Source: Lutibacter sp. A64
Lineage (GTDB): Bacteria > Bacteroidota > Bacteroidia > Flavobacteriales > Flavobacteriaceae
Reading direction: 5' to 3'
Length of the DNA: 64,000 bases
NCBI RefSeq assembly: GCF_022429565.1
Contig: NZ_CP092487.1
Coordinates: forward strand, 212,001 to 276,000
The translations under genes and the position numbers were made by a program. Below the pieces are notes generated by a model. That model did not search any database, was not told the DNA's origin, and saw only the letters and a program-made list of their open reading frames with translations. Shown piece after piece: positions 9,236-44,918 of this stretch (position 1 is the stretch's first letter; each line of letters opens with the position of its first letter).

Positions 9236-9316
9236 CGTTAATAAGCACTTTAAATTTTAGTTTTTAAACCTAACAAAAAAGTACTTATTACGAATCAATA
9301 AAAAAGAATTAACGAT

Positions 9317-12101: not shown

Positions 12102-13571
12102 ATGTTTCGTATCAATACTTTTAAATTATTAATGTGTTGTATTGCTTTTGTATTAAGTGCTTGTAGAACAACAAAAAAGAAATCATCAGTTACAGTATCA
12201 GAAATAAAACCTAATATATTATTTATTTTATGCGATGATTTAGGCTATGCTGATGTTGGCTTTAATGGATCTCCAGATATTAAAACTCCAAATTTAGATG
12301 CGTTAGCTAATAAAGGAACTATTTTTAAATCTGCTTATGTAACACATCCTTTTTGTGGACCAAGTAGAGCAAGTATAATGACTGGTCGTTATCCGCATAC
12401 AATAGGATCTCAGTTTAATTTACCTCCAAATAGTGAAATTATTGGAGAAGGAATAGATGTAAACGAAACATTTATAAGTTCTACTTTGCAAAATGCTGGA
12501 TACTATACAGGAGCATTAGGAAAGTGGCATTTGGGGGCTGTTGAAAAATACCACCCAAACAATAGAGGATTCGATGATTTTTATGGATTTTTAGGAGGAG
12601 GTCATAATTATTTTCCTGAACAATTTATGAAAGCTTATGAAATTAGAAAAAAAGCAGGAAACAAACATATTTTCGAATATTTATTGCCATTAGAACATAA
12701 CGGAGAAGAAGTTGTAGAAACAGAATACGTTACAGATGCTCTGTCTAGAGAGGCTGTTCGTTTTGTTAATGATGCAGCTAAAACCAAAAAACCATTCTTT
12801 TTATATTTATCATATAATGCACCTCATACACCTTTAGAAGCTAAAAAAGAAGATTTAAAGTTGTTTGAATCTATTAAAGATGAAAAAAGAAGAACTTATG
12901 CAGCAATGGTTTATGCAGTTGATAGAGGAGTTAAAAAAGTGGTTGAAGCATTAAAAGAAACGAAACAATTAGAGAATACCTTAATTATATTTTTAAGCGA
13001 TAATGGAGGTAGATTAGATCAAGGAGCAAATAATTATCCTTTAAAAGAAGGAAAAGGAAGTACTTATGAAGGTGGGTATAGAGTACCTATGTTTTTCTAT
13101 TGGCCAAAACATATTGCCGCCGGAAAATATTATAGCCACCCAGTTTCTTCATTAGATTTTTATCCTACATTATCTTATTTAGCAAACGCAACTATTTCAA
13201 AAGATAAAATATTAGATGGTAAAAATATTTGGAAAAACATTCAAGAAAATAGCAATGCTAGAGTAGGAGAACCAATTTTTGCAATGAGACATCAAAAAGG
13301 ATTTACTGACGCCGCTATAAGAATTGGTGAGTGGAAAGCTCTAAAAATTCACAGACAACATTGGAAATTGTTCAATATTGAAAATGATATTTCTGAAACC
13401 ATTGATCTAAGTTTGAAGCATCCAGAAATTTTAACAAAATTAGTAAAGCAAAGTAAAGATTGGAGTACAACTCATACAAAACCTTTATGGTTTCATAGTG
13501 AAAAAACAGGTAAAGATTGGGAATCATTGAATATGCCAGATTTTGATACTCTTTTTCAAATTGAAAAATAA
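12102..13571 (+). CDS. S1-family sulfatase, lipoprotein (CGPSR type)
   Basis: 489-residue sulfatase with lipobox LSAC (Cys21). Metal site: LCDDLGYAD near residues 44-45. Maturation motif C-G-P-S-R at Cys85 (HPFCGPSRASIMTG). Other landmarks are LGKWHLG, YNAPHTPLEAK and FLSDNGG. It is a close paralog of the secreted sulfatase at 27572-29047: both share the FYGFLGGGHNYFPE segment, RRTYAAMVYAVDRGV and a terminal KPLWFHS/QPLWYYS stretch. One copy is lipid-anchored and the other has a plain signal peptide, so they may act on the same linkage on different sides of the envelope. Complete; expected to be active. Confidence 0.93.
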   Translation: MFRINTFKLLMCCIAFVLSACRTTKKKSSVTVSEIKPNILFILCDDLGYADVGFNGSPDIKTPNLDALANKGTIFKSAYVTHPFCGPSRASIMTGRYPHTIGSQFNLPPNSEIIGEGIDVNETFISSTLQNAGYYTGALGKWHLGAVEKYHPNNRGFDDFYGFLGGGHNYFPEQFMKAYEIRKKAGNKHIFEYLLPLEHNGEEVVETEYVTDALSREAVRFVNDAAKTKKPFFLYLSYNAPHTPLEAKKEDLKLFESIKDEKRRTYAAMVYAVDRGVKKVVEALKETKQLENTLIIFLSDNGGRLDQGANNYPLKEGKGSTYEGGYRVPMFFYWPKHIAAGKYYSHPVSSLDFYPTLSYLANATISKDKILDGKNIWKNIQENSNARVGEPIFAMRHQKGFTDAAIRIGEWKALKIHRQHWKLFNIENDISETIDLSLKHPEILTKLVKQSKDWSTTHTKPLWFHSEKTGKDWESLNMPDFDTLFQIEK

Positions 13572-13684: not shown

Positions 13685-14542
13685 ATGAAATTAGTAGTTA
13701 AAAATTCAGAAAAACCTATAAATAAGAAACTATTTATCGAAAACAGGGAAGTTCCTTGTTTAGATGCATCATGGCATTACCATCTAGAATATGAATTGTT
13801 GTATATTTCACAAAGTAGCGGAATTCGTTTTGTAGGTGATAGCGTTTCCCCTTTTTTACCTGGTGATTTAGTTTTAGTAGGTCCTTATTTACCACATTTA
13901 TGGAGAAATGATATTTCATATTATAAAGATAATGAAGAGTATTTTGTAAAAACTATAGTTACTAAGTTTAGTAAAGATTTTATTGGAGAAAACACTTTTG
14001 AAAGCGTAGAGTTTAAGGAAATCAATAAAATGCTAGACGATTCTAAATATGGCGTTGCTTTTGGTGAAAAAACTAGTGAAAAAATGCATGAAGATATCAT
14101 GAATATAGCTAATCTTAAACCAGTAGAGCAAAGTATAAAATTATTAGAAATTCTTCATAGACTCTCTATAGTTAAAGATAAGAAACTACTTTCTTCTTCA
14201 GATATGAGGCAATTTACTTCAGAAAATTCACAAAGAATAGACAATGTTTTAAAATTTATATCTGACAATTATGTTAGTTATATTAGTTTAAACGATGTGG
14301 CTGAAGTTGCTTGTATGACCACAAACTCTTTTTGTCGTTTTTTTAAAAGAATGACCAATAAATCCTTCACTCAATTTTTAAATGAAGTTAGAATAAGAAA
14401 CGCTTCTAGATTACTTATTCAAGGAGATTTACCTGTTTCTGAAGTTTGTTATATTGTAGGATATAACTCTATTACAAACTTTAATAAACAATTTAAACAA
14501 ATTATGGGGTGTACACCTAATAATTATAGAAAAACTATTTAA
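13685..14542 (+). CDS. AraC-family transcriptional regulator of the galactan PUL
   Basis: 285-residue one-component activator. The N-terminal ~90 residues form a cupin-type sensor domain (WHYHLEYELLYI, FLPGDLVLVGPYLPHLW). The C-terminal ~100 residues carry two helix-turn-helix motifs: SLNDVAEVACMTTNSFCRFF, then PVSEVCYIVGYNSITNFNKQF followed by the family end PNNYRK. It is encoded in the middle of the locus, between the sulfatase and the second susCD pair. AraC proteins typically bind direct repeats about two helical turns apart, which is the arrangement of the seven operators described here, so it is the best candidate to bind them. The effector is likely an intracellular galactan breakdown product. 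An AraC regulator is also part of the Zobellia carrageenan locus. Confidence 0.92.
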   Translation: MKLVVKNSEKPINKKLFIENREVPCLDASWHYHLEYELLYISQSSGIRFVGDSVSPFLPGDLVLVGPYLPHLWRNDISYYKDNEEYFVKTIVTKFSKDFIGENTFESVEFKEINKMLDDSKYGVAFGEKTSEKMHEDIMNIANLKPVEQSIKLLEILHRLSIVKDKKLLSSSDMRQFTSENSQRIDNVLKFISDNYVSYISLNDVAEVACMTTNSFCRFFKRMTNKSFTQFLNEVRIRNASRLLIQGDLPVSEVCYIVGYNSITNFNKQFKQIMGCTPNNYRKTI

Positions 14543-14813: not shown

Positions 14814-17800
14814 ATGAAAAAACTAAAAAATTTTAAATCAAAAGCAAATTGCCAAAACTCGGGTAGTTTAGTTTTAAAATTGAATTTTAACAGGGTGCTT
14901 ACTTTAGCATTTTTATTTTCAATGAGTTTTTTTCAAGGTATAGCTGCGAAATCGATTTCGTATAGTAGCTTTGAAAATAAAGAACCAATAATCTTAAATC
15001 AACAAATTGAGATTTCTGGTGTGGTTTCTGATAAAGACGGACCATTACCAGGTGTAAATGTTTTAGTTAAAGGTACTTCAAACGGAGCCTTAACAGATTT
15101 TGATGGGAATTATTCAATTTCAGTAGATAATAATGCTGTTCTTGTGTTTTCTTACATAGGGTATAAAACTAAAGAGGTTTTAGTTGATGGAGAAACAACA
15201 ATAAATGTGATGCTAGAAGCTAATACAGAAAATCTTGATGAAGTTGTAGTATTAGGATATTCAACTAGAAAAAAAGGAGATGTTACAGGTTCTGTAAGTA
15301 CTGTAAAAGCTGGAGATATTGAAAAATCGGGTAGTAAAGATTTAGTAAAATCATTGGCAGGTAAGGTTTCAGGTTTAATCATTTCAGATAGAGGAGGTAC
15401 ACCAGGTTCGGGTGAAACAACATTATTAATAAGAGGAAAATCTACTTTGGGTAATAACTCTCCATTAATATTAATTGATGGAATTGTAGCGTCTTCTTTT
15501 TCTCATTTGTCACCTCAAGATATTGAAAGTTTAACAGTTTTAAAAGATGGAGCTGCTGCAATTTATGGAGCAAGAGCTGCAAATGGTGTTATTTTAGTAA
15601 CAACAAAAAGAGGTAAAAATGGGAAAACTAAAATAAATTTATCTACTTCTTATACTATTTCTTCATTTTCAGCCGAACCAAGTTTAATGTCTTCGGAACA
15701 ATTTGCAATTTATAATAATGAAATAGAAGAAAGGTTTGGTAGAAATGCTACATATACTCAAGAAGATATTGTTAAATATGCTAATGGTTCAGATCCTATT
15801 AATTACCCTAATACAAATTGGGCAGACGAAACTTTTTCTAAAACATCACCAGAATCAAGAACATCATTATCACTTTCTGGAGGAAATGAAAATGTAAATT
15901 ACTTTGTTAGTGGAGATATGATTCGTCAAAAAGGAATGTATAAATCAGGCGACTTAAAATTTGATCAAAATCAAATAAGATCGAACTTAGATATTAAAAT
16001 TATAGATGATCTTAAATTAGGTGTTGATTTATCTGGAAGATTTGGTGAAACTGTAGAGCCAGGTATTGGTACAAGCTATATTTATAAAAATATTTATAAT
16101 AATTTTCCTACTGAAGTTGCTGTATATCCAAATGGTTTAGTTGCTTGGGGAGGAGAAAACGGAGCAAACCCAGTTATTATGTCTAGTAATGAAACAGGTT
16201 TTGAAAAGCAAGTAGATAATGATTTACGTGGTAAAATATCAGTCGACTATGATTTAAATAAACTTGCTGAAGGTTTAAAATTTAAAGGGTTTGCAGGTAT
16301 GAGAAGAATGAATTATGATCAAAAATATTGGTACAGTCCTTGGACGGTTTATTCTTATCTAGAAGGTGCCGATGAATATGTAGCTCAACCAGGATTTTCA
16401 CAAGATGGGAATGAAAATATATTACGCGAAAGTTTTTGGAAATACAACGAATTAATGTTGAATGCAACTGTTTATTATTCTAAAACAATAAACGATAAAC
16501 ATAATTTTAGTGGGTTTGTTGGATATGAACAAACTACTTCAGATCAACGTAATTTTTGGGTAGAAAAGAAAGGTTTCCCAGATTCTGAACACTCTGAGTT
16601 ATTTGCAGGAGATACAGATGGTCAAACTTCTGATGGAACATCTTATGAATGGGCTCGTGTTAATTATTTTGGGTCATTTTCTTACGATTATATGAAAAAA
16701 TATTACGTAGACATTACATTACGTCACGATGGCTCTAGTAATTTTGGTCCAGGAAATAGATTTGGAACTTTCCCAGGAATTGCATTGTCTTGGTCAATAG
16801 ATAAAGAATCTTTTATGGAAGATGTTTCTTGGGTAAATTCATTAAAACTAAGAACATCTTGGGCTAAAATGGGTAACGACCGTATTTCTGGATTTCAGTA
16901 CTTAACCCAATATAATTATGCCGGTAATGTAGGCGCACTACCTAACTATTATAATTTTGGTGGAGAATATTATAATGGATATTCTAGTATTGGAGTTGCA
17001 GCTGCAAATCCAGATATTACTTGGGAGGCTGCAGATATGAAAAATATTGGTTTAAACTTCACATTATTAGATAGTAGATTGACAGGAGATTTCAATTATT
17101 TTTATCAAAAAAGAGAAGATATTTTAATAACAAGAAATGCATCAATACCAGATTATACAGGGTTAACATTACCTCAAGAAAATATAGGTAAAGTAGATAA
17201 TTATGGTTGGGAATTTGAATTGGGATGGAATGATACTATTGAAGATTTAGGTTATAATATTGGTTTTAATTTTACTCAAGCCAAAAATGAAGTAGTTTAT
17301 ATGGATGAGGCTGAAAATGTAATAGATGCAATGAAGCAAGAAGGACATCCAATGGATTCTTATTTAATATATCCAACAAATGGACTTTTTCAAAACCAAG
17401 CACAAGTAGATGCTGAACCTGCAAAATTAGCAGGTACAGTTCCAGGAGAACCATATTATATTGATACAAATGAAAATGGTAGAATAGACGCAGGAGATAG
17501 AATACGTTCTTACTCTTCAAACGTACCTGAGGTACAATATGGTATACACGGAGGTTTAAATTATAAAAATTGGAATTTTAGTTTCTTATTTCAAGGGCAA
17601 GCAAAAGCTAAAATGCAAGTGTTTTTTGAAGGAAATGGAGCGTTGCCAGATTTCTTATATGATCAACGTTGGACTCCTGAAAATACTGAAGCAAGATATC
17701 CAAGAGCCTATGCAAATGGAGATTCATATAGTACTAGTTTAAATGGACCAGAAAATTTCCAAGGCGCAGATTTATGGTTACGCGATGCTTCATACCTTAG

Positions 17801-18014
17801 GTTAAAAGAGGTTGAATTAGGATATGCTTTACCTAAAGATATAACAAGGTTTGCTGATGTTAAAGTTTATGTAAGAGGTTACAATGTGTTAACTATGTTT
17901 TCAGATATATATGATTTAGGCTTAGATCCTGAAGCAGAGGGTTATAACAGCTTTAGACAAAGTAGATACCCTTCCTTAAAATCATTTACGTTTGGTTTAA
18001 ATTTTAATTTTTAA
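14814..18014 (+). CDS. SusC-like TonB-dependent receptor
   Basis: 1066-residue SusC with a long N-terminus and a membrane segment at about residues 27-45. A carboxypeptidase-regulatory-like beta domain follows (GVVSDKDGPLPGVNVLVKGT, about 70-145). The plug domain starts around LDEVVVLGYSTRKKGDVTGS and contains PLILIDGI and VLKDGAAAIYGARAANGVILVTTK. The barrel ends FGLNFNF. It differs clearly from the other two SusC proteins in the window (Y-S-T in place of the GYGT element; different end region), so it probably takes a different oligosaccharide. It is complete and followed by its SusD after 60 bp. Confidence 0.96.
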   Translation: MKKLKNFKSKANCQNSGSLVLKLNFNRVLTLAFLFSMSFFQGIAAKSISYSSFENKEPIILNQQIEISGVVSDKDGPLPGVNVLVKGTSNGALTDFDGNYSISVDNNAVLVFSYIGYKTKEVLVDGETTINVMLEANTENLDEVVVLGYSTRKKGDVTGSVSTVKAGDIEKSGSKDLVKSLAGKVSGLIISDRGGTPGSGETTLLIRGKSTLGNNSPLILIDGIVASSFSHLSPQDIESLTVLKDGAAAIYGARAANGVILVTTKRGKNGKTKINLSTSYTISSFSAEPSLMSSEQFAIYNNEIEERFGRNATYTQEDIVKYANGSDPINYPNTNWADETFSKTSPESRTSLSLSGGNENVNYFVSGDMIRQKGMYKSGDLKFDQNQIRSNLDIKIIDDLKLGVDLSGRFGETVEPGIGTSYIYKNIYNNFPTEVAVYPNGLVAWGGENGANPVIMSSNETGFEKQVDNDLRGKISVDYDLNKLAEGLKFKGFAGMRRMNYDQKYWYSPWTVYSYLEGADEYVAQPGFSQDGNENILRESFWKYNELMLNATVYYSKTINDKHNFSGFVGYEQTTSDQRNFWVEKKGFPDSEHSELFAGDTDGQTSDGTSYEWARVNYFGSFSYDYMKKYYVDITLRHDGSSNFGPGNRFGTFPGIALSWSIDKESFMEDVSWVNSLKLRTSWAKMGNDRISGFQYLTQYNYAGNVGALPNYYNFGGEYYNGYSSIGVAAANPDITWEAADMKNIGLNFTLLDSRLTGDFNYFYQKREDILITRNASIPDYTGLTLPQENIGKVDNYGWEFELGWNDTIEDLGYNIGFNFTQAKNEVVYMDEAENVIDAMKQEGHPMDSYLIYPTNGLFQNQAQVDAEPAKLAGTVPGEPYYIDTNENGRIDAGDRIRSYSSNVPEVQYGIHGGLNYKNWNFSFLFQGQAKAKMQVFFEGNGALPDFLYDQRWTPENTEARYPRAYANGDSYSTSLNGPENFQGADLWLRDASYLRLKEVELGYALPKDITRFADVKVYVRGYNVLTMFSDIYDLGLDPEAEGYNSFRQSRYPSLKSFTFGLNFNF

Positions 18015-18074
18015 TTTAAAAATAGAAAATTTATTAAATGTTAATTAATAAGAAAATTATAAAGAGATAAAGAG

Positions 18075-19787
18075 ATGAAATATATAAAAATAAAATTTGC
18101 GATTGCACTGCTAACTGTTTTTACAATAGTGAGTTGTAGTGATGATATTTTAAATACAGAAGCAAGTGATTCTTTTACAGAAGATGCAATTTATAGCGAT
18201 GTAAACCAAGCAAAACTTGTGGTGGTTACTGCTTATAACACTACAGATAGTTGGTCTATAAATCGCTCTCAATGGTGGACACAAAGAATAGGGATAGAAG
18301 GAGCTTCTTGGGAAGCTAAATTTAACTTTAAAGACTTAGATAATCCATATAAAATGAGAGGTGGATGGTCTCCAAGTAATGCTGGATTGGCATTTAATAA
18401 TAGATGGGCAACTTCTTGGGATTATGTGAAGCTAATAAATGAATTTTTAGAAAAAATAGAAGGTAGTGAAGCAATGGAGGAAGCTCCAGAAGAAGTAGCA
18501 CAATTAAAAGCTGAAATGACATTCTTAAGAGCTTTTACCTATTTTAATTTAGTTAAATATTATGGAGGTGTTCCAATTATTAAAAAATCATTTGGATTGG
18601 ATGATGAATTTAATTTATCTAGAGATAGTTTTGAAGATTGTGTAGATTTTATAGTGAATGATTTGGATGAAGCTGCTGCTATTTTACCAATGGAAGCTTC
18701 AGAGTTTGGTAGAGCAACTAAATTAGCGGCATTAGCGGTTAAATCTAGAGTTTTACTGTATGCTGCAAGTGATTTACATGACCCGAGTACTGTGCCAAAC
18801 GGACCTCTTTATGATTATGCAAGATCAACAAAATGGCAAGATGCAGCTGATGCTGCAAAGGCAGTAATAGATTTAGTTGGAGATCGTGATTTAATTCCTG
18901 TTGCAAATGCGACAGAATATCAAAATTTATTTTTACACCAAAATCAAGATATTTTATTCGCACGTTCATATGGAAGCCTGTATGCTGAAATGGCAAACGA
19001 TATTAATACATTACCAGATCAGGCACAATCACCTAATGGTTATACTGGCTGGGGCTTAAGTTCACCTTCACATAATTTTGCTTTAGAATTTAATATGAAA
19101 GACGGTACTAGAACCAATAATGAAGAATTTGATCCATTAAGCATAAATGAAGGAAGAGAAATGAGATACTATGCAAATCTATTATTTCAAGGAGCTTATT
19201 TTAGAGGACGTAACGTAGATTATGCTTTGGCAGATAACCCAAGTGATACAACTCCAGATGGATTAGATTCACCTAAAGGGTTAGGAAACCAATTACACTC
19301 TTCTAAAACAGGATATAATATAAGAAAGTTTCAAGATGAAAGCTTATCTACTTTAACAACTTTTTCTGTAGACCGTCCATATATAATGTACAGATTGGCT
19401 GAAATTTATTTAAATTATGCTGAAGCTATGTTTTATATAAATGAAAATATTGCTAGAGATTATGTTAATAAAGTGTCAAATAGAGCATTACAGCCAAATA
19501 TAGATGCTAGTGGGGCAGATTTATTAGAAGCTATTAAAAGAGAAAGAAGAGTAGAACTTTGCTTTGAAGGACATAACTTTTTTGATGAAAGAAGATGGAT
19601 GAATCAAGACCATATAGGTGGTTATGATATTAGAGGATTAAAATGGACAAAAGCTGTTGATGGTACCTTAAATTATGAAGAGTATACCGTTGTAAATAGA
19701 CCTTGGTTTGATTATAGGTATTATTTACCTATTCCACAAACAGAGATAGATAAAGACGCTTCATTAGAGCAAAATTATGGATATTAA
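18075..19787 (+). CDS. SusD-like surface glycan-binding lipoprotein
   Basis: 570-residue SusD partner of the SusC just upstream. Lipobox VSC followed by SDDILNTE (surface-export pattern). SusD hallmarks: EMTFLRAFTYFNLVKYYGGVP, DEAAAILP, IMYRLAEIYLNYAEA, ERRVELCFEGHNFFDERRWM and the terminal YYLPIPQTEID. No SGBP gene follows this pair; a terminator comes directly after. The pair is thus built differently from the two SusC-SusD-SGBP sets at the ends of the locus. Confidence 0.96.
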   Translation: MKYIKIKFAIALLTVFTIVSCSDDILNTEASDSFTEDAIYSDVNQAKLVVVTAYNTTDSWSINRSQWWTQRIGIEGASWEAKFNFKDLDNPYKMRGGWSPSNAGLAFNNRWATSWDYVKLINEFLEKIEGSEAMEEAPEEVAQLKAEMTFLRAFTYFNLVKYYGGVPIIKKSFGLDDEFNLSRDSFEDCVDFIVNDLDEAAAILPMEASEFGRATKLAALAVKSRVLLYAASDLHDPSTVPNGPLYDYARSTKWQDAADAAKAVIDLVGDRDLIPVANATEYQNLFLHQNQDILFARSYGSLYAEMANDINTLPDQAQSPNGYTGWGLSSPSHNFALEFNMKDGTRTNNEEFDPLSINEGREMRYYANLLFQGAYFRGRNVDYALADNPSDTTPDGLDSPKGLGNQLHSSKTGYNIRKFQDESLSTLTTFSVDRPYIMYRLAEIYLNYAEAMFYINENIARDYVNKVSNRALQPNIDASGADLLEAIKRERRVELCFEGHNFFDERRWMNQDHIGGYDIRGLKWTKAVDGTLNYEEYTVVNRPWFDYRYYLPIPQTEIDKDASLEQNYGY

Positions 19788-20088: not shown

Positions 20089-21654
20089 ATGAGTTCATAT
20101 AAGAAAAATGCATTTACTTACGCAACAATTGTAGCAGTTGGAGGTTTTATTTTTGGCCTAGATGCTGCTTTAATTTCAGGAACTGTAAATTTTATTACAG
20201 AAGAATTTTCACTAAATCCATTACAATTAGGTTTTGTAGTAGGGGCTCCAAGTATTGGTGTTTTATTAGCGTTGTTTTTTGCGGGGAGTGCTTGTAATTA
20301 CCTAGGTAGAAAAAAAACATTGCAAATAATAGCTGCACTATATTTAGTTTCAGCGGTCTCTTCGGCATTAGCACCAAGCTATTGGGCACTTGTAGCAGCT
20401 AGATTTTTAGGAGGGTTAGCTTTTAGTTCTATATCTGTAGCTTCTATGTATATAGGTGAAATTGCACCACCAAAATGGAGGGGTAAGTTGGTTTCTATGA
20501 CACAAATAAATATTGTATTAGGGTTGTCTGCAGCTTACTTTATCAACTATTTAATTATTCAATTTACCAATTCAGATGTATCTTGGGTAGATAATTTAGG
20601 TTTAAGAGAAAACACCTGGAGATGGATGTTAGGTTCTGAAATTTTGCCAGCTCTTATATGGCTTACTTTACTTTACTTTATACCTAGAAGCCCGTCATGG
20701 TTAATGTTTAATGGAAAAACAGAGGAAGCTAAAAATACACTTAGAAAAATTATTCCTGAAGATGAAGTGACTCTTAATATACAAGAAATGCAAAATAGTA
20801 TGGATATTAGTGAGCAAGATCATTCAATAGTTTCACAATTAAAGCAGATATTTAGTAAACCAATGCGTGTTACTTTCATAATTGCAACTACAATTGCAAT
20901 TGCCCAACAATCTACAGGGATAAATGCAATTCTATTTTATGCGCCAACTGTTTTTGAACAAATAGGAGGTGGGTCAGATGCAGCGTTTATGCAATCTATT
21001 TGGATAGGTTTAACAAGTGTTGTTTTTACAATTTTAGGATTGTTATTAGTAGATAAATTGGGGCGAAGACCTTTAATTATTTGGGGTATGGTTTGGATAA
21101 TTTTAAGTTTAGGACTATGTTTTTATGGATTTAATTCAGCACGCTATACAATTAATAATAATGCTATTGTTGAATTAAATGAAATTAATAACCCAGAAAG
21201 ACTTAATGCAATTGTAGGTGTAGAATATGATAGTGATATTTCATTTAAAAAAGCATTAGAAGAAACATTAGGTGAAGTAGATGCTCGTAATCACGAAAGT
21301 GTTTTAATACAAAAAGCAGCTAAAATTAATGCTATTTTAATATTAATAGGTATCCTAAGTTTTATTGCAGCATTTCATTTTTCAGTAGGGCCTGTTATGT
21401 GGGTATTGTTTTCAGAAATATTCCCTATATCTATTCGTGGTATTGCCATTCCATTTTTTACTTTATTAACAAGTATTGTAAGTTCAATGGTACAAGTCTT
21501 TTTTCCAAAACAACTAGCAACATTTGGAATAAGTAATACATTGCTTTTTTATGCAATAACCGTTGCCATAGGATTGGTAATTTTATATAAATATTTAATA
21601 GAAACCAAAGGATTAACCATTGAAGAAATTCAACTAAAACTACAAAATAAATAA
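20089..21654 (+). CDS. MFS sugar transporter (sugar porter family)
   Basis: 521-residue inner-membrane sugar symporter with about 12 membrane segments. Sugar-porter signatures: GGFIFGLDAALISGT (TM1), RFLGGLAFSSISVASMYIGE-IAPPKWRGK (TM4 to loop), QQSTGINAILFYAP (TM7), DKLGRRPLI, and the C-terminal ETKGLTIEEI. An extra loop of about 65 residues (about 340-420, with many Asn/Glu) sits between TM9 and TM10; such insertions occur in Bacteroidetes members. It would bring monosaccharides or small oligosaccharides made in the periplasm into the cytoplasm. The stop codon is 2 bp from the next start, so it is translated with the GH16. Confidence 0.93.
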   Translation: MSSYKKNAFTYATIVAVGGFIFGLDAALISGTVNFITEEFSLNPLQLGFVVGAPSIGVLLALFFAGSACNYLGRKKTLQIIAALYLVSAVSSALAPSYWALVAARFLGGLAFSSISVASMYIGEIAPPKWRGKLVSMTQINIVLGLSAAYFINYLIIQFTNSDVSWVDNLGLRENTWRWMLGSEILPALIWLTLLYFIPRSPSWLMFNGKTEEAKNTLRKIIPEDEVTLNIQEMQNSMDISEQDHSIVSQLKQIFSKPMRVTFIIATTIAIAQQSTGINAILFYAPTVFEQIGGGSDAAFMQSIWIGLTSVVFTILGLLLVDKLGRRPLIIWGMVWIILSLGLCFYGFNSARYTINNNAIVELNEINNPERLNAIVGVEYDSDISFKKALEETLGEVDARNHESVLIQKAAKINAILILIGILSFIAAFHFSVGPVMWVLFSEIFPISIRGIAIPFFTLLTSIVSSMVQVFFPKQLATFGISNTLLFYAITVAIGLVILYKYLIETKGLTIEEIQLKLQNK

Positions 21655-21656
21655 TT

Positions 21657-23147
21657 ATGAATTATTACAAAATTTATAGTTTCACACTATTATTAGGAGT
21701 TTTCTTATTTATAAGTTGTGGACCAGAAAAACATGATAATAAAACTACTAAAGATACCATTACAGAATCTTTATATTACCCATTTTCAGATTCTGAAAAT
21801 AAAGGAGGATGGGTATTAAATGAAGAAATTTCAGACGAATTTGAGGGAGCATCAATAGATACAACAAAATGGTTTGTTGAAGGTCTAAATGGTGATTATT
21901 ACATTTGGAAAGGCCGTGCACCGTCTCAATTTGTTTCACATAATGTAAGAGTTGAAGATGGTAAATTAAAACTTAGAACAAACTGGGAACCAGATTATGA
22001 TTTTTTTGAAGAAAGTTATACCGACGGAAATATGGGAACTTCTAAATATGGTGAATATAAAGGAGAACCAATGCCAATTACTACCGCTGCTGTAGTTTCT
22101 AAAAAACGCTTTTTAAATGGTTATATGGAAGTGAAATCTAAAGTTGGAAATGCAGCTATTACAGGTGCTTTTTGGGCTATAGGATACGAGCAAGAATTAG
22201 ATGTATATGAGTTAATGGGAAATCCAAAAAATAAAAAAGGTAATATTAGAGAAGATTCTTATTTAGCAACTGCTCATGATTGGAGTCCACCTGCTGAAAG
22301 ACCAACAAATGTGTTTCAACATACAGAGGATTTACCGTTTAGAACTGCAGATGAATTTCATGTATATGGTGCCGAATGGGGTGAAGATTTCTTAAAACTA
22401 TTTATTGATGGAAAATTAGTACATCATTTTACTCAAGATGATGTTGGCCTAGATTGGGTGCTAAATAATCCAATGGAAATTTGGTTAGATTCTGAAATTT
22501 TCTTTTGGTTAGGTCTTCCTCATAAAGAAGAATTACCAGTAGATTTTGAAATAGAATATATGAGAGTTTGGCAAAAACCTTCAGATAATTTATTGGCAAA
22601 AGATCGTGCTTTTTATGGTTTTGAAGGCCCAATACTATTTGAAGAAAACCCAAGACCGTTAACTATGGTTCCAGAAGATTCTAAACCAAACGACTATCAG
22701 AAATTTTGGTTGATAGATGATGTTTCTAAAAAATATTTTTCTATTGTTGAAGGTCAATATGCAAGTGGTGTAGAAAGTCTTCAATTTGCAGGATATGGTA
22801 AAAATGAAAATTTTGAAGTTGAAAAAGCAGCTGTTTTAACTCCAGAAGGAGCAATTAATATTCCGGCAGGCGAATACACATTCTCTATGAAAGTATGGCT
22901 AGATCAAGGTAGAATTGCTGATAAAATTTATGTTTCTTTTGAAAATCCTAAGTTAGAAATTGAATTTAAAGATTTATCAAAATTAGAACGTCGTCAATGG
23001 ATTACATTAGAATCAACTATTTCAAAAACTGAAGCTTCAGCTAAAAACGATCAACTTAAAATTGAAATTAGAAAAGAAGATTTACCTAAAGATAAAGCTC
23101 CTAAACTCTTTATTGATGACATTGCAATTAAAAAAACTATAAAATAA
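21657..23147 (+). CDS. GH16 endo-galactanase with C-terminal CBM-like module, lipoprotein
   Basis: 496-residue lipoprotein (lipobox ISC, Cys21). The GH16 domain is about residues 40-300, with catalytic ELDVYE (Glu180, Asp182, Glu185) and the same WKGRAPSQF and VEDGKLKLRTNWEPD segments as the GH16 at 10629. Residues ~305-496 are a separate beta module (INIPAGEYTFSMKVWLDQG, LERRQWITLE, KLFIDDIAI) that resembles the last domain of the two SGBPs in this locus and is absent from the first GH16. It is probably an endo-acting enzyme at the cell surface, tethered to substrate by the extra module. Translationally coupled to the MFS gene. Confidence 0.9.
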   Translation: MNYYKIYSFTLLLGVFLFISCGPEKHDNKTTKDTITESLYYPFSDSENKGGWVLNEEISDEFEGASIDTTKWFVEGLNGDYYIWKGRAPSQFVSHNVRVEDGKLKLRTNWEPDYDFFEESYTDGNMGTSKYGEYKGEPMPITTAAVVSKKRFLNGYMEVKSKVGNAAITGAFWAIGYEQELDVYELMGNPKNKKGNIREDSYLATAHDWSPPAERPTNVFQHTEDLPFRTADEFHVYGAEWGEDFLKLFIDGKLVHHFTQDDVGLDWVLNNPMEIWLDSEIFFWLGLPHKEELPVDFEIEYMRVWQKPSDNLLAKDRAFYGFEGPILFEENPRPLTMVPEDSKPNDYQKFWLIDDVSKKYFSIVEGQYASGVESLQFAGYGKNENFEVEKAAVLTPEGAINIPAGEYTFSMKVWLDQGRIADKIYVSFENPKLEIEFKDLSKLERRQWITLESTISKTEASAKNDQLKIEIRKEDLPKDKAPKLFIDDIAIKKTIK

Positions 23148-23269: not shown

Positions 23270-25258
23270 ATGAGTATAAATATAAACAACCATAACAACG
23301 CAATAACTAACAATTCAGAAAGTCCTTTTGCAAAATTAAAAAGTATAAACTTTGGTGATTGTAAATGGAATTCAGGATTTTGGGCTGAAAAAGTGAAAAA
23401 TGCAGAAGATAAAATGCTTCCTTATATGGGAGATTTATTATGTGGAGATATAGGTCACGCTTTAAATAATTTTAAAATTGCAGCAGGTGAAAAAGTAGGA
23501 GAACATAAAGGTTTTTATTGGCACGATGGAGACTTTTATAAGTTTATGGAAGCTAAAATGTACATTTATGGACTTACTAAAAATGAGTCTTTACTAAAAG
23601 AATTAGATGAATATATTGCTGTAATTGGACGCGCTCAAGAGGACGATGGCTACATTCATACACATATTCAAATTACTGAAGGTGCTGATAGATTTGAAAA
23701 TAGAAAATATCACGAAATGTATAATTTTGGGCATTTATTTATTGCAGCTTCTATACATTATAGAATTACTAAGCAACGTAATTTTTTAGATATAGCAATA
23801 AAACAAGCAGATTTATTGTATACTTATTTTATGCCAGACACCAAACATTATCAACGTTTTGGTTTTAACCAAACTCAAATTATGGGATTGGTAGAGTTGT
23901 TTAGAACAACAAAAGATGAGAAATATTTAAAACTTGCCGAAAAATTTATCAATAGAAGAGGAACTTATGAAATTAAACATGACGATACAACTATTGGTTA
24001 TCCTATTGGAGATATGGTTCAAGAAAGAACTCCTTTAAGAGAATCTAGAGAAGCTGTTGGTCATGCTGTTTTGGCCTTATATTACTATGCAGGAGCAGCT
24101 GACGTATATGCTGAAACCGGAGAAAAAGCATTAATTGAAGCGTTAGATGCTTTATGGGAAAATATTACAGGTAAAAAAATGTATGTAACTGGTGCTGTTG
24201 GCCAGGCACATTATGGAGCTTCTACTAGTTTAGATATGATTGAAGAAGGATTTATTGATGCGTATATGATGCCGAATATGACTGCCTATAACGAAACCTG
24301 TGCTAACTTATGTAATGCCATGTTTAGTAGTAGAATGATGGCTATTAAAGATGAGTCGAGATATGCAGATATTATTGAATTAGTATTGTATAATAGTGGT
24401 TTATCAGGTATTAGTATAGAAGGAAAAGACTATTTCTACTCCAATCCTTTAAGAATGGTAAATAATTCTAGAGATTATAATTCTCATGCAGATGTAACTG
24501 AAAGTCCAGTAAGACAACCTTATTTAGAGTGTTTTTGTTGTCCACCAAATTTAGTACGTACTATTTGTAAAACTTCAGGATGGGCGTATAACTTATCAGA
24601 AAACGGTGTAGCGGTAGTATTATTTGGAGGAAATAATTTAGATACAACTATGTTAGATGGTTCACCTTTAAAACTTTCTCAAGATACAGATTATCCTTGG
24701 AAAGGGATAGTGAAAATTACTGTTGATGAATGTAAGAATTCAGCTTTTGAAATTAAAATTCGTATCCCTAAATGGGCCGTTGGAAGTACCTTAAAAGTAA
24801 ATGGTAAAGATGTAGGTATTGCAGTTAATCCAGGTAGTTTTGCAGTAATAAATAGAGTTTGGAAAGCTGGAGATGTTATTCTGTTAGATATGCCAATGGA
24901 AGTAACTTTAGTTGAAGGTCATAACCGAATAGAAGAAGTTAGAAATCAAATTGCTGTTAAAAGAGGTCCAATTGTATATTGTATCGAAACTCCTGACTTG
25001 CCTAAAGATACATCTATTTTAGATGTTTATTTTAATGGTTCTTCGCAATTAAAAGCAACTCATGAAAACAACTTTTTAGGAGGTGTAACAGTTGTAGAAA
25101 CAGAACTTTTATTAAGGGCTAGTAAAACAGAAGATATGTACCAAACCGTTACAAAACCGAGCTTTACAGCGTTTAAAACACAGTTAATTCCTTATTTTGT
25201 ATGGAGCAATAGAGGACAAGCTGAAATGACGGTATTTATGCCTGTTATTTGGCTATAA
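23270..25258 (+). CDS. GH127-family glycosidase, cytoplasmic
   Basis: 662-residue GH127 (DUF1680) protein. The Zn/cysteine catalytic site known from the family is intact: Glu342 and Cys344 in YNETCA, Cys423 and Cys424 in ECFCCPPN. There is no signal peptide (the N-terminus MSININNHNNA is polar), so it should act in the cytoplasm. The paralog directly downstream (25449-27464) has a signal peptide. In Zobellia, GH127 members are alpha-1,3-(3,6-anhydro)-D-galactosidases that release anhydrogalactose from desulfated carrageenan oligosaccharides; other GH127 are beta-L-arabinofuranosidases. The Dau pathway nearby favours the first activity. The 122-bp gap upstream shows no operator, so it is likely cotranscribed with MFS and GH16. 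Confidence 0.92.
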   Translation: MSININNHNNAITNNSESPFAKLKSINFGDCKWNSGFWAEKVKNAEDKMLPYMGDLLCGDIGHALNNFKIAAGEKVGEHKGFYWHDGDFYKFMEAKMYIYGLTKNESLLKELDEYIAVIGRAQEDDGYIHTHIQITEGADRFENRKYHEMYNFGHLFIAASIHYRITKQRNFLDIAIKQADLLYTYFMPDTKHYQRFGFNQTQIMGLVELFRTTKDEKYLKLAEKFINRRGTYEIKHDDTTIGYPIGDMVQERTPLRESREAVGHAVLALYYYAGAADVYAETGEKALIEALDALWENITGKKMYVTGAVGQAHYGASTSLDMIEEGFIDAYMMPNMTAYNETCANLCNAMFSSRMMAIKDESRYADIIELVLYNSGLSGISIEGKDYFYSNPLRMVNNSRDYNSHADVTESPVRQPYLECFCCPPNLVRTICKTSGWAYNLSENGVAVVLFGGNNLDTTMLDGSPLKLSQDTDYPWKGIVKITVDECKNSAFEIKIRIPKWAVGSTLKVNGKDVGIAVNPGSFAVINRVWKAGDVILLDMPMEVTLVEGHNRIEEVRNQIAVKRGPIVYCIETPDLPKDTSILDVYFNGSSQLKATHENNFLGGVTVVETELLLRASKTEDMYQTVTKPSFTAFKTQLIPYFVWSNRGQAEMTVFMPVIWL

Positions 25259-25273
25259 GTATTAATTAAAAAT

Positions 25274-25318
25274 AAGCATAAAAAAAACTGAAGCATATAC
25301 TTCGGTTTTTTTATGCTT
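25274..25318 (+). terminator. Rho-independent terminator between the two GH127 genes
   Basis: Long stem from AAGCAT (25274) to ATGCTT (25318) that includes A7/T7 flanks and an inner ACTGAAG/CTTCGGT stem with one wobble pair. It ends the MFS-GH16-GH127 unit. Confidence 0.85.
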
Positions 25319-25335
25319 AAAATTTTATGGTTTCA

Positions 25336-25401
25336 AGGTAAAATAATGTTAACTGTGGGTAAATATTATTAATAGAATTTAAATATAAAATTGTTTTTTT
25401 G
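25336..25401 (+). promoter_or_regulatory. Paired-half-site operator with -7 box (site C), secreted GH127
   Basis: AGGTAAA (25336-25342) and GGGTAAA (25357-25363), start spacing 21. At the 38-bp position the -7 box is TTTTTTG (25395-25401), a weaker match than the others. It lies 48 bp before the ATG at 25449, so the alternative TTG start at 25413 would leave almost no leader. Confidence 0.7.
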
Positions 25402-25448
25402 TTTAAGCACTTTTGTGTAAATCTAAACTATTTATAAAAAACTTAATA

Positions 25449-27464
25449 ATGAAAAAATTCTTTATACTCTTTTTTAATGTATTATTTATTATCACTTCAT
25501 TTGGTCAAACTAATGGTATTATTAACAATGCTAATAGTTCTCATGTGAAATTTAAAAGTATTGATATGGGCGACTGCCAATGGACAGATGGTTTTTGGGC
25601 AGATAAATTTAAAGTAGCAGAAGAAGTAATGATTCCTTATATGGGAGAGTTACTAACCGGAGATATAGGCCATGCTTTAAACAATTTTAAAATTGCAGCT
25701 GGTCTTAAAGAAGGTGAACATAAAGGAATGAAATTGCACGATGGAGATTTCTATAAATGGATGGAGGCTTCAATGTATATTTATGCTCAAAATAAAGATA
25801 AAAAAATATTAGCTGATTTAGACCGATATATTGAAATAATTGGTAGAGCGCAAGCTCCTGATGGTTATTTACAAACACAGGTTCAAACCACTGATTTAAA
25901 GCGTTACGGAAATAGACAGTACCACGAAATGTATAATAGTGGACATTTATATACAAGTGCTTGTATTCATAATCGTATAACTGGAAAAACTAATTTCCTT
26001 GATATTGCAATTAAAAGTGCAGATAACTTATACGATACATTTATGCCTCAACCAGACCATTTAAAAAGATTTGGGTTTAATCAAACTCAAATTATGGGAT
26101 TGGTAGAATTATACAGAACTACAAAAAATAAAAAATATTTAGAGTTGGCAGAATTATTTATCAATATGAGAGGTAAATCTAAAGTTATACCTGATGCTAC
26201 TGCAAGTTTTAAGTTTATTGGAGATATGGTTCAAGAACGCACACCATTAAGAGAGGAACAAACAGCCGAAGGTCATGCCGTTTTAGCATTGTATTTTTAT
26301 GCAGGAGCAGCAGATGTTTATGCTGAAACCGGAGAACAAGCATTAATTGATGCTTTAGACAGACTTTGGAGTAATGTTGTTGATAAAAAAATGTATGTAA
26401 CTGGTGCGGTAGGACAAACTCATCATGGAGCATCTTCAAATGTAGATATGATTCATGAAGGTTTTATTAACGAATATATGATGCCAAATTTAACAGCATA
26501 TAATGAAACGTGTGCAAATATTTGTAATTCTATGTTTAGTTATAGAATGTTAGGTGTTCATGGGGAAGCTAAATATGCAGATATAATGGAATTAGTACTT
26601 TTTAATAGTGCTTTATCTGGAATTAGTATTGAAGGTAAAGATTATTTTTATGCAAATCCTCTACGTGTACATCACGATGGATATGATCCAGGAAATGATA
26701 CTGAATTTGATGTTCGTCAGCCTTACATTCCTTGTTTTTGTTGTCCTCCAAACTTAGTGCGTACCATTGCAAAAGTTTCTGGTTGGGCTTATAGTTTAAC
26801 AAATAATGGTGTAGCAGTAAATTTATACGGTGGAAATAAATTAGAAACAAAACAACTAGATGGATCTAAGATTCAATTGAAACAAGAAACTCAATACCCA
26901 TGGAATGGAAATGTAAATATTACAATTGAAAAATGTAAAAGAGAAGCTTTTGATATATTAATAAGAATACCTGAATGGGCAAAAGGTTCTACTTTATTAG
27001 TAAATGGAAAAGATATAGAATCTGAAGTAATAGCTGGTACTTATGTCACTATTAATAGAAAGTGGAAAAAAAATGACATAATTAATTTAAAAATGCCAAT
27101 GGATGTTAAATTGTTAGAGGGAAATCCTTTAATAGAAGAGGTTAGAAATCAAGCTGCAGTAAAAAGAGGTCCAGTTGTATATTGTGTTGAATCTCCAGAT
27201 TTACCAAAAAATACAGATATATTGGATGTATATTTACCTCTAAAATCAAATTTAACAGCAACGTATAGACCAAATTTTTTAGGAGGTGTTTCTACCATTA
27301 CTGGAGATTTTAAATTACGTCACGTAAATGGTGAAGGGATGTACAGAGAAATAGCAAAACCAACTTGGGAAACTCAAAAAGTTCAGTTAGTGCCTTATTT
27401 TGCTTGGGCAAATAGGGGAGAAAGTGAAATGACTGTTTGGTTACCAATTCTTTGGGAAGAATAA
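25449..27464 (+). CDS. GH127-family glycosidase, secreted
   Basis: 671-residue GH127 paralog of the enzyme just upstream; the two align along their whole length (DMGDCQWTDGFWADK, FGFNQTQIMGLVEL, GDMVQERTPLRE, KMYVTGAVGQ). Catalytic site: Glu353 and Cys355 in YNETCA, Cys431 and Cys432 in CFCCPPN. The start is placed at ATG 25449, giving a clean signal peptide (MKKFFILFFNVLFIITSFG then Q) and leaving room for the promoter. It should be periplasmic, the reverse of its paralog. A likely role is removing terminal anhydrogalactose before transport. It has its own operator and terminator. Confidence 0.92.
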   Translation: MKKFFILFFNVLFIITSFGQTNGIINNANSSHVKFKSIDMGDCQWTDGFWADKFKVAEEVMIPYMGELLTGDIGHALNNFKIAAGLKEGEHKGMKLHDGDFYKWMEASMYIYAQNKDKKILADLDRYIEIIGRAQAPDGYLQTQVQTTDLKRYGNRQYHEMYNSGHLYTSACIHNRITGKTNFLDIAIKSADNLYDTFMPQPDHLKRFGFNQTQIMGLVELYRTTKNKKYLELAELFINMRGKSKVIPDATASFKFIGDMVQERTPLREEQTAEGHAVLALYFYAGAADVYAETGEQALIDALDRLWSNVVDKKMYVTGAVGQTHHGASSNVDMIHEGFINEYMMPNLTAYNETCANICNSMFSYRMLGVHGEAKYADIMELVLFNSALSGISIEGKDYFYANPLRVHHDGYDPGNDTEFDVRQPYIPCFCCPPNLVRTIAKVSGWAYSLTNNGVAVNLYGGNKLETKQLDGSKIQLKQETQYPWNGNVNITIEKCKREAFDILIRIPEWAKGSTLLVNGKDIESEVIAGTYVTINRKWKKNDIINLKMPMDVKLLEGNPLIEEVRNQAAVKRGPVVYCVESPDLPKNTDILDVYLPLKSNLTATYRPNFLGGVSTITGDFKLRHVNGEGMYREIAKPTWETQKVQLVPYFAWANRGESEMTVWLPILWEE

Positions 27465-27503
27465 ACAAAATTTAAACTAATTGAATTTTTTTAAAATAAA
27501 ATG

Positions 27504-27544
27504 AAAATACTATGTTAACAATAAGATGTTTGCATAGTGTTTTT
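27504..27544 (+). terminator. Terminator-like hairpin after secreted GH127
   Basis: AAAATACTATG (27504-27514) pairs with CATAGTGTTTT (27533-27543, one G-U pair). The 3' arm ends in T residues. Confidence 0.6.
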
Positions 27545-27571
27545 ATTTGTATAACATAAATTATATTAATT

Positions 27572-29047
27572 ATGAATTTAACTCAAAAAATAAAAACTTT
27601 TTTTGCTGTAGTGTTATTAACTTCAGGCTTAATTACAGCTCAATCTGAACAACCAAACATTTTATTCATTTTATGTGACGATTTAGGGTATGCAGATGTT
27701 GGTTTTAATGGATCTAAAGATATTATTACTCCACATATGGATGAATTAGCGGCAAACGGAATGATTTTTACTTCAGCATATGCAGCACATTCTTTTTGCG
27801 GACCTAGCCGTGCTTCAATTTTAACTGGTCGTTATTCTCAAGAAATAGGAACACCTTTTAATCTTCACAGTAATTCTAGTATGAATGATGATGATAATAT
27901 GGGGATTCCAACGGAAGAAACATTTATGTCAAATATATTACAAGATGCTGGTTATTATACCAGTGCTTTAGGGAAGTGGCATTTAGGAAGTGCGCCAAAA
28001 TATCATCCTAATAATAGAGGTTTTGATAATTATTATGGATTTCTTGGTGGAGGTCATAATTATTTCCCTGAAAGATATCAGAAAGAATATCAAAAGCAGT
28101 TAAAAGCTGGAAACAAAGAAATTAGAGACTATATTCTTCCATTGGAACATAACCAAAAAGAAGTTAAAGAGACTGAATATATTACAGATGCCTTATCTAG
28201 AGAAGCAATAAAAGATATTAAAAAGGCGGCAGATAAAAAAGATCCTTTCTTTATTTATTTAGCCTATAATGCACCACATGTTCCTTTAGAGGCTAAAGAT
28301 GAAGATCTTAAAGTCTTTGCTAATATTAAAAATAAAGATAGAAGAACTTATGCAGCTATGGTATACGCTGTTGATAGAGGTGTTGGAGAGATTGTAAAAA
28401 CATTAAAAGAAACAAATCAATATAATAATACATTAATTGTTTTTATGAGTGATAATGGAGGGAATTTTGATCACGGAGCCAATAATTACCCTTTAAAAGG
28501 AACAAAAGGAGATGCCTGGGAAGGTGGTTATAGAGTTCCAATGTTTTTTCATTATCCAAATAAATTACCAAAAGGTAAAAAATTCGATTATCCAGTATCT
28601 GCTTTAGATTTATATCCTACGTTTGTAAATTTAGGAAAAGGTGAAATTCCTAAAAATAAATTATTATCAGGTAAAGACATAATGGAATCTTTAATTAATA
28701 ATTCAGAACCACATAAAAACAATATGATTTATTGTTTAAGATATCGTCATGGCTTTAGCGATGTTGGTGCAAGGCTAGGTGATTGGAAAATTACAAGAGT
28801 TGGTAACGAGCCTTGGAGGTTAACAAATATAACACAAGATATTGGAGAGAAAAAAAATATGGGAGGTAGATACCCAGATCGACTTAAAAAAATGGTAGAA
28901 GAAACACAAAAATGGACAGAAGGCTTTGTACAACCTTTATGGTATTATTCAGCTAAAGATGAAGAATTATGGAAAGATGGAAGAATGCCACAGTATAATG
29001 AAACCTTCGAAGTTTCTAAATTAATAGATTTACCTACTAAGCATTAA
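27572..29047 (+). CDS. S1-family sulfatase, secreted (CGPSR type)
   Basis: 491-residue S1 sulfatase with a signal peptide (…SGLITA then Q), so periplasmic. Metal site LCDDLGYAD; maturation motif C-G-P-S-R at Cys76 (HSFCGPSRASILTG); LGKWHLG; YNAPHVPLEAK; MSDNGGNFDHG. Paralog of the lipoprotein sulfatase at 12102-13571. It follows the secreted GH127, suggesting the pair act together in the periplasm: desulfate, then remove the anhydrosugar. Complete. Confidence 0.93.
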   Translation: MNLTQKIKTFFAVVLLTSGLITAQSEQPNILFILCDDLGYADVGFNGSKDIITPHMDELAANGMIFTSAYAAHSFCGPSRASILTGRYSQEIGTPFNLHSNSSMNDDDNMGIPTEETFMSNILQDAGYYTSALGKWHLGSAPKYHPNNRGFDNYYGFLGGGHNYFPERYQKEYQKQLKAGNKEIRDYILPLEHNQKEVKETEYITDALSREAIKDIKKAADKKDPFFIYLAYNAPHVPLEAKDEDLKVFANIKNKDRRTYAAMVYAVDRGVGEIVKTLKETNQYNNTLIVFMSDNGGNFDHGANNYPLKGTKGDAWEGGYRVPMFFHYPNKLPKGKKFDYPVSALDLYPTFVNLGKGEIPKNKLLSGKDIMESLINNSEPHKNNMIYCLRYRHGFSDVGARLGDWKITRVGNEPWRLTNITQDIGEKKNMGGRYPDRLKKMVEETQKWTEGFVQPLWYYSAKDEELWKDGRMPQYNETFEVSKLIDLPTKH

Positions 29048-31591: not shown

Positions 31592-31633
31592 TGTAAAATT
31601 TTTTGTGTTTAAAACATGGTTTAATTTAATTAT

Positions 31634-31699
31634 CAAATTAGCAAAAAAAATAGTTGAAATACTTCTTAAATATTACCTTGTACTATAGGTATTTTACCC
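31634..31699 (-). promoter_or_regulatory. Paired-half-site operator with -7 box (site E), S1_7-like sulfatase
   Basis: On the minus strand: GGGTAAA (31699-31693) and AGGTAAT (31678-31672), start spacing 21; -7 box TAATTTG (31640-31634) starts 38 bp after the second half-site. The -7 box lies 43 bp upstream of the chosen ATG at 31591. Confidence 0.75.
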
Positions 31700-35972: not shown

Positions 35973-35984
35973 AATTATAATGTC

Positions 35985-44796: not shown

Positions 44797-44852
44797 ATTT
44801 TGATATTTTTTTGTTGACGCTAAAGCAGAAAACTGTATTTTATTTATTTGGA

Positions 44853-44918
44853 TAAAATTATAGATTGTTGTAATTCCTATAATCCCCATAATTATCTTAA
44901 ACAAATCAAATATTACCT
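44853..44918 (-). promoter_or_regulatory. Paired-half-site operator (site G), dauBA operon
   Basis: Minus strand: AGGTAAT (44918-44912) and AGATAAT (44897-44891), start spacing 21. At the -7 position the match is weak: AATTTTA at 38 bp, or TAATTTT at 37 bp. This is the least certain of the seven sites, but the half-sites keep exact spacing. Confidence 0.55.

Follow-up and report, generated by a model that had tools for sequence, protein, structure and literature searches.

Gene organization of the locus

This study concerns two neighbouring genes of glycoside hydrolase family 127 (GH127) in a 64,000-nucleotide stretch of the Lutibacter sp. A64 genome (contig NZ_CP092487.1, positions 212,001 to 276,000), here called the window, which is a carrageenan utilization locus in a host of the same family as Zobellia. 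Both genes lie on the plus strand. GH127 no. 1 (23270..25258) encodes a leaderless protein of 662 amino acids, a predicted cytoplasmic 3,6-anhydro-D-galactosidase, and GH127 no. 2 (25449..27464) encodes a protein of 671 amino acids that carries a signal peptide and is predicted to be periplasmic. A sequence-only reading of this DNA had suggested that the pair releases anhydrogalactose in two compartments, matched by two uptake systems. The two-compartment part is a well-founded prediction, and the part on uptake is supported, though not proven, by gene content across related genomes.

GH127 no. 1 ends a transporter-GH16 unit, as had been proposed. The unit consists of the gene for a major facilitator superfamily (MFS) sugar transporter (20089..21654), a 2-nucleotide gap, a GH16 gene whose product has a lipoprotein-type signal (21657..23147), 122 nucleotides and GH127 no. 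1, all on the plus strand, and is followed by a terminator-like hairpin (25275..25322, plus strand; -18 kcal/mol, z -6.86). GH127 no. 2 comes next, then a second such hairpin (27496..27556, plus strand; -20.4 kcal/mol, z -5.97) and, beyond it, a plus-strand gene for an S1_19-type sulfatase (27572..29047) that has a signal peptide by the heuristic described below. The MFS protein is the proposed inner-membrane importer of desulfated neocarrabiose, and a RhaT-like transporter encoded at 41066..42079 on the minus strand is the proposed importer of 3,6-anhydro-D-galactose.

The hairpin stretches were picked by eye and their energies compared with 200 shuffles, none of which was as good for either hairpin; a simple terminator scan listed neither. 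The strong hairpin directly 3′ of GH127 no. 2 agrees with the suggestion that this gene has its own terminator, and it makes co-transcription with the sulfatase gene, judged from the sequence, doubtful because it lies between the two. No operator of its own was found for GH127 no. 2. The 15-mers found in common in the 250-nucleotide upstream stretches of 18 genes, counting those with at most 12 A/T, lay scattered, and a search upstream of six genes for exact inverted repeats of at least 7 nucleotides gave none for GH127 no. 2, the MFS gene or the sulfatase gene, AT-only repeats for GH127 no. 1 and the SusC gene, and a single repeat for the RhaT-like gene (GAATACTT, 8 nucleotides, AAGTATTC); both searches were run without a shuffle control. 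A scan for sigma-70 sites was uninformative, with 42 sites against 55.1 in shuffles.

The core of carrageenan loci published for Bacteroidetes comprises dauA, dauB, dauD, dagA, an S1_7-type sulfatase gene, an AraC-family regulator gene and SusC/D, with DagB outside the core, in the sections of Ficko-Blean et al. (2017, PMC5698469) covered here. That core is present in the window, where the dau genes were assigned by Pfam family and the S1_7 type by the closest solved structure. The minus strand encodes an aldehyde dehydrogenase (42173..43627; proposed DauA), an enolase superfamily protein (43639..44904; proposed DauB, the cycloisomerase, from an open reading frame with a doubtful TTG start) and a sulfatase (39588..40997) that among solved structures matches an exo-4S-kappa-carrageenan sulfatase (6prm) best. 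On the plus strand are genes for a KDPG/KHG aldolase (8558..9235; proposed DauD), the AraC-family regulator (13685..14542), a SusC-like outer-membrane receptor (14814..18014) and a SusD-like lipoprotein (18075..19787). A PfkB kinase gene (9317..10405, plus strand) is the candidate for the dauC role by its Pfam family match, and together with the aldolase gene, at 8558-10405, it could complete the anhydrogalactose pathway. A further plus-strand sulfatase gene (12102..13571) encodes a protein with a lipoprotein-type signal whose best solved match is 6bia, followed by the iota-carrageenan sulfatase 6b0j. This sulfatase and the one at 27572-29047 are different proteins, both closest to S1_19 structures.

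The two GH127 enzymes

Both GH127 proteins contain all three Pfam GH127 domains (catalytic, middle and C-terminal), well over the cut-off, and they are 63% identical across 654 residues. Solved GH127 structures align with both over nearly their full length, the best being 5mqo. The open frame of GH127 no. 2 (25413-27464) begins with TTG; its likeliest real start is the ATG at 25449, because the signal peptide begins there. HypBA1 of Bifidobacterium longum has a Zn(Cys3-Glu) site, with Cys417 as the nucleophile and Glu322 as the acid/base (PMC8106489, in the parts covered). Mapping to HypBA1 (3wkw) places the acid/base residue of GH127 no. 2 at E337 and the Zn-site residues at E353, C355, C431 and C432, and the alignment of GH127 no. 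1 to GH127 no. 2 gives E326 and E342, C344, C423 and C424. The Glu-Cys and Cys-Cys pairs noted in the sequence-only reading are therefore kept in both proteins, as scored at the level of residues. Among 136 aligned relatives (rows), the four Zn ligands and the acid/base Glu are kept in 133 of 133 ingroup rows, and the acid/base column holds Gln in the three outgroup rows. Since all ingroup rows keep these residues, neither the leaderless nor the exported kind shows active-site decay. Both genes probably encode exo-acting alpha-1,3-(3,6-anhydro)-D-galactosidases of the GH127 DagA type.

Predicted locations

N-termini were scored by a home-made heuristic that considers charge, an uncharged hydrophobic stretch and a cleavage or lipobox motif; where several starts were possible, the highest score was used. 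A score of at least 3.0 counted as a signal peptide, which held for 118 of 125 homologues of sulfatases and SusD and for 0 of 31 homologues of cytoplasmic proteins (dehydrogenase and enolase). SusC homologues were poorly recognized, with 2 of 12 accepted; the SusC protein of the window was missed because its hydrophobic stretch is far removed from the start. GH127 no. 1 has no signal peptide, and there is no room for one because its open frame of 666 amino acids begins only 4 codons 5′ of the ATG. GH127 no. 2 has a clear one, with a score of 3.82. The scores of the 136 relatives were bimodal and divided them into 69 exported and 67 leaderless rows; the leaderless rows reached at most 2.74 (L043, with a TTG start), the second highest of them scoring 1.93, and the exported rows began at 3.01. 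The opposite predicted locations of the two proteins are thus supported, and the split recurs across many genomes.

It is conceivable that GH127 no. 1 is exported by a leaderless route, so that both enzymes are periplasmic. We regard this as highly improbable, as no member of the 64-row clade to which the protein belongs (see below) scores as bearing a signal peptide and relatives that do bear one are common.

History of the pair

A GH127 tree of the 136 rows was built with IQ-TREE (LG+G4, quick; the fragment L011 was left out). In this tree 64 of the 67 leaderless rows form one clade nested among exported rows, with a support of 90 in the SH-like approximate likelihood ratio test (SH-aLRT), and the tree requires 3 changes of the leaderless/exported label, compared with about 45 on average for shuffled labels, so that two label changes beyond the early loss are already required. 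When 15 rows were added, the clade held 64 of 69 leaderless rows (SH-aLRT 93) and 5 changes were needed. The leaderless rows L024, L029 and L102, outside the main clade, have an MFS gene directly adjacent.

GH127 no. 1 falls in the 64-row leaderless clade, which also holds the leaderless Zobellia enzyme encoded next to an MFS gene. We equate this Zobellia enzyme with ZGAL_3148 (DagA2) by gene order, on which the DagA1-3 type names used here also rest. GH127 no. 2 lies in a separate clade of 11 rows (SH-aLRT 98) that contains no Zobellia genes from the dagA3 place or the distant dagA1 place, nor any of the DagA2 type, and it falls apart from the Zobellia GH127s encoded ahead of the MFS gene, so that a DagA3-type assignment failed. 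The fourth GH127 copy of Z. uliginosa C3R17 (L073) does belong to the 11-row clade. A recent tandem duplication was considered and is ruled out by the different clades and by the 63% identity. The description of the pair as tandem paralogs therefore holds for the head-to-tail arrangement but not for a local duplication: they are old paralogs that lie side by side. The same arrangement is seen in other Lutibacter loci (L036, L038 and L082), where a leaderless GH127 gene is followed after 163-187 nucleotides, open frame to open frame, by an exported GH127 of the same type; unlike the window, L036 and L082 have a third, exported GH127 within the locus. Separately, at E 1e-190 the genome G334 (loci L129, L131 and L198) was seen to encode six members of this GH127 group, of which two are leaderless.

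The separate clade bears on an alternative that accepts the split in location and proposes a shifted specificity for the exported enzyme, towards a different or decorated oligosaccharide, with transporters that track lineage instead of compartment. No characterized member of the 11-row clade turned up, although no dedicated search for one was made. The band patterns of the Zobellia GH127s in fluorophore-assisted carbohydrate electrophoresis differ, according to the sections of PMC5698469 covered, and CaGH127_1 of Cellulophaga algicola is fast and the other candidates slow (PMC10958521, in the parts covered). The transporter profiles described below are also partly explained by relatedness. However, the Zn-site and acid/base residues are identical in all ingroup rows, only one column differs consistently (at least 85% on each side) between the 64-row clade and 62 exported rows, and the GH127s tested from carrageenan loci all released 3,6-anhydro-D-galactose in the published parts we covered. 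A shifted specificity is, in our view, unlikely.

Genome profiles of GH127 kinds and transporters

Gene content was profiled in 74 genomes, namely the 73 that hold 75 of our 79 named loci and the Lutibacter genome itself; L112 was left out as presumably belonging to the genome of L094 (G455). The sample is biased to GH127 no. 1, its confirmation query, and some genomes are metagenome-assembled. GH127 genes were counted genome-wide at E 1e-120 (all matches were in fact below 1e-190) or 1e-190, and all candidates were scored for signal peptides. Thirty genomes have leaderless GH127s only, 30 (the Lutibacter genome included) have both kinds and 14 have exported ones only. Six ambiguous calls were set by hand to exported: four from loci fetched at the places of L209, L115, L176 and L184, and two in Flammeovirga (G454 and G455) because the Flammeovirga rows of the tree are exported. 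These calls moved G431 and G466 to the class with both kinds and changed the leaderless-only, both and exported-only counts of the 73 genomes from 32, 27 and 14 to 30, 29 and 14. The leaderless-only genomes examined include seven gammaproteobacteria and one planctomycete. A family sample obtained with GH127 no. 2 as the query, limited to those 27 of the 42 genomes with a match that had a relative of at least 53% identity and with all candidates scored, gave 13 genomes with both kinds, 9 leaderless only and 5 exported only; about 16 of these genomes are apparently shared with the first set.

At thresholds of E <=1e-60 for the RhaT-like transporter and E <=1e-100 for the MFS transporter, a RhaT-like gene was present in 28 of the 44 genomes with an exported GH127 and in none of the 30 leaderless-only genomes (Fisher p 2.5e-9, without correction for relatedness). 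The MFS gene was present in 58/60 genomes with a leaderless GH127 versus 2/14 without one (p 3.6e-10, likewise uncorrected), or 52/60 versus 1/14 when at least 50% identity was demanded. In 26 of the 28 genomes the RhaT-like gene lies within 30 kb of a GH127 gene on the same contig. The partly overlapping family sample gave RhaT-like genes in 13/18 genomes with an exported GH127 versus 0/9. The opposite pairings were examined as a cross-check. Leaderless GH127 against RhaT-like gene gave a Fisher p of 0.033 and independent contrasts of 0.0 same and 1.6 opposite out of 6, and exported GH127 against MFS gene gave p 0.005 with 0.5 same and 1.2 opposite out of 10. A simple neighbour enrichment of MFS genes (44/58 leaderless versus 24/53 exported rows) was set aside as confounded because both GH127 kinds share loci, and whole-genome profiles were used for this reason.

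Several observations weigh against a strict matching of transporter to enzyme. Independent contrasts on an rpoB tree, which covered 72 of the 74 genomes (G401 and G432 had no marker match), gave for exported GH127 and RhaT-like gene 5 same, 0 opposite and 5 without difference out of 10 (median p 0.0625), and for leaderless GH127 and MFS gene 4.2 same, 0.1 opposite and 1.6 without difference out of 6 (median p 0.125). Sixteen of the 44 genomes that encode an exported GH127 lack a RhaT-like gene. MFS orthology is unsure in several gammaproteobacteria, where the best match is no more than 44-46% identical. G129 and G377 have one exported GH127 (E 1e-190) with the MFS gene directly downstream and no leaderless copy; near relatives of these enzymes in G184 and G289 are without a signal peptide and also adjoin an MFS gene, and a RhaT-like gene occurs in G129 but not in G184, G289 or G377. 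G449 has a separately leaderless copy (L202) and no MFS match. Completeness is not stated for the 73 named-locus genomes, so that not all absences are firm, and the signal-peptide calls come from a home-made heuristic instead of SignalP. Once corrected for relatedness, the direction of both associations holds with low power, which is consistent with the matching and not decisive. The proposal of two uptake systems matched to two compartments is supported by the gene profiles and stops short of proof; neither contrast has a median p below 0.05.

Three neighbouring genes were also counted at the named loci, the two sulfatases within 10 kb on each side. GH16 homologues (at least 50% identity) were found near GH127 in 12/30 leaderless-only, 12/29 both-kind and 0/14 exported-only genomes, a distribution to be expected if the GH16 protein makes the imported disaccharide. 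Homologues (at least 55%) of the sulfatase at 27572-29047 were found in 0/30, 9/29 and 4/14 genomes of these classes, and those (at least 55%) of the sulfatase at 12102-13571 in 14/30, 6/29 and 0/14.

GH129-like DagB was searched for with the DagB-type protein of L097, identified by gene order; PF11308 had been tried as a detector and was replaced because its matches were weak (26-27 bits, in 2 of 38). DagB was found in 2 of 38 genomes (the Lutibacter genome and 37 others), both of which carry both GH127 kinds, and in 2 of 2 Zobellia controls. By this protein search the Lutibacter genome has no GH129-like DagB, nor have any of the 29 leaderless-only genomes searched (the thirtieth, G450, was outside that search). 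The leaderless GH127 therefore seems to be the only known enzyme for this step in those genomes.

Comparison with known systems

The closest known case is Zobellia galactanivorans. In the sections of PMC5698469 covered here, its locus ZGAL_3145-3159 encodes the three GH127s DagA1-3, the GH129-like DagB, the MFS transporter ZGAL_3149 and the drug/metabolite transporter (DMT) sugar/H+ symporter ZGAL_3157. All three GH127s are active on a furcellaran hexasaccharide, paralogs of this family number 1-3 per species, and the locus has three cytoplasmic-membrane transporters. Periplasmic action is given as the likelier scenario for DagA3 and DagB, and the published model has these two key anhydrogalactosidases in the periplasm and, in the sections covered, no role for the leaderless paralog. 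Fig. 3 of that paper gives predicted locations and may already label DagA2 as cytoplasmic. Free 3,6-anhydro-D-galactose, normally only an intracellular intermediate by the authors' inference, induced ZGAL_3157 and dagA3 most strongly of the Table 1 genes shown (log2 7.0 and 7.1), with 4.7 for the MFS gene and 3.5 for dagA2.

The Zobellia locus and the window share several GH127 paralogs beside an MFS gene, S1_19 and S1_7 sulfatases, an AraC-family regulator, a DMT or RhaT-like symporter, and dehydrogenase and cycloisomerase genes. The Zobellia loci L096, L073 and L126 have the order exported GH127 (with a lipoprotein-like N-terminus), MFS, leaderless GH127 and a distant exported GH127, and no GH16 gene adjoins the MFS gene in the Zobellia loci seen. 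In the window, by contrast, the locus includes a SusCD pair and a PfkB-type kinase gene, the MFS and GH127 genes are separated by a GH16 gene, DagB is absent, and the exported GH127 belongs to a clade distinct from those of the Zobellia DagA1-3-type genes. Cellulophaga algicola, like the window, has two GH127s in one carrageenan locus; CaGH127_1 and CaGH127_2 both release 3,6-anhydro-D-galactose after desulfation and differ in speed (PMC10958521). HypBA1 offers a parallel for cytoplasmic splitting, since in B. longum an extracellular enzyme makes a disaccharide that is imported by a transporter and split by the intracellular GH127 (PMC8106489), which resembles one of the routes proposed here. 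It has the same residues as the window enzymes, but it acts on beta-L-arabinofuranosides and is served by an ABC transporter instead of an MFS transporter. According to a paper on Colwellia, neocarrabiose is believed to be transported into the periplasm or the cytoplasm (PMC6952198, in the part covered). We found no link between GH127 location and transporter type in the carrageenan literature covered, which mostly excludes subscription journals. The comparative pattern across relatives is what is added here.

A proposed pair of final steps in carrageenan breakdown

A somewhat better than even case can be made that the DagA-type GH127 pair acts at the end of carrageenan breakdown, one enzyme on each side of the inner membrane, and serves two routes. 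Sulfatases and the GH16 enzyme, outside the cytoplasm according to the signal peptides seen, would make small desulfated oligosaccharides. Neutral neocarrabiose would then enter the cytoplasm through the MFS transporter, to be split there by the leaderless GH127 into 3,6-anhydro-D-galactose and galactose. By the second route, the exported GH127 would release 3,6-anhydro-D-galactose in the periplasm, the RhaT-like symporter would import it and the Dau enzymes would then degrade it. The locations and the substrates of both enzymes and both transporters we infer from domains, catalytic residues, signal peptides as called by the heuristic, clade structure and co-occurrence.

Two results from Zobellia (PMC5698469, in the sections covered) also speak against this proposal. 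A strain lacking both dagA3 and dagB does not grow on carrageenan even with an intact dagA2, so the leaderless enzyme alone is insufficient there, and 3,6-anhydro-D-galactose induces the MFS gene as well. Both would fit an explanation in which galactose and anhydrogalactose enter as monosaccharides through the two transporters, and the role of the leaderless GH127 is a minor one, the scavenging of what little disaccharide gets in. We consider this explanation quite improbable, given that 30 of the 74 genomes have, at the thresholds used, only leaderless GH127s and that the 29 of them searched are all without DagB. One possible reason for the failure of the Zobellia double mutant is that no GH16 enzyme is encoded beside the MFS gene to make the disaccharide.

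If the two-route proposal is extended to the relatives, import of the disaccharide (MFS transporter with leaderless GH127) and import of the monosaccharide (exported GH127 with RhaT-like symporter) would be interchangeable last-step modules in carrageenan degraders. An early loss of the signal peptide would have been followed, it appears, by losses in up to four further lineages, many bacteria would keep only the first module and so make anhydrogalactose only in the cytoplasm, and the window would have both. We offer this joint reading tentatively, with a likelihood that falls a little short of even.

Other features of the window

The TTG starts of the open reading frames listed at 43639-44904 and 29966-31636 look wrong, and an internal ATG would fit better in each, giving a cytoplasmic enolase-family enzyme in the first and a sulfatase signal peptide in the second. 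Among the open reading frames scanned, up to position 48403, there are three SusD-like genes (in the regions 1086-2840, 14814-19787 and 34194-39080), two of them with a SusC-like partner, which suggests more than one outer-membrane uptake system. A GH2-like domain (58989-59408 in the window, G000:C1:270989-271408; 27.1 bits, cut-off 21) lies in a large open reading frame at the far end (57966-60974). GH2 matches number 20 in the genome, too many to assign, and three of these fall in the 20 kb that precede the window.

Implications

Through the profiles, transporter genes of unknown substrate gain a specific partner that can be tested, and the two-module pattern, if true, offers a reason for the persistence of the paralogs. 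The profiles also predict an exclusively intracellular production of anhydrogalactose in many marine bacteria, so that leakage to neighbours would be avoidable. It is this general pattern, rather than the locus alone, that deserves testing.

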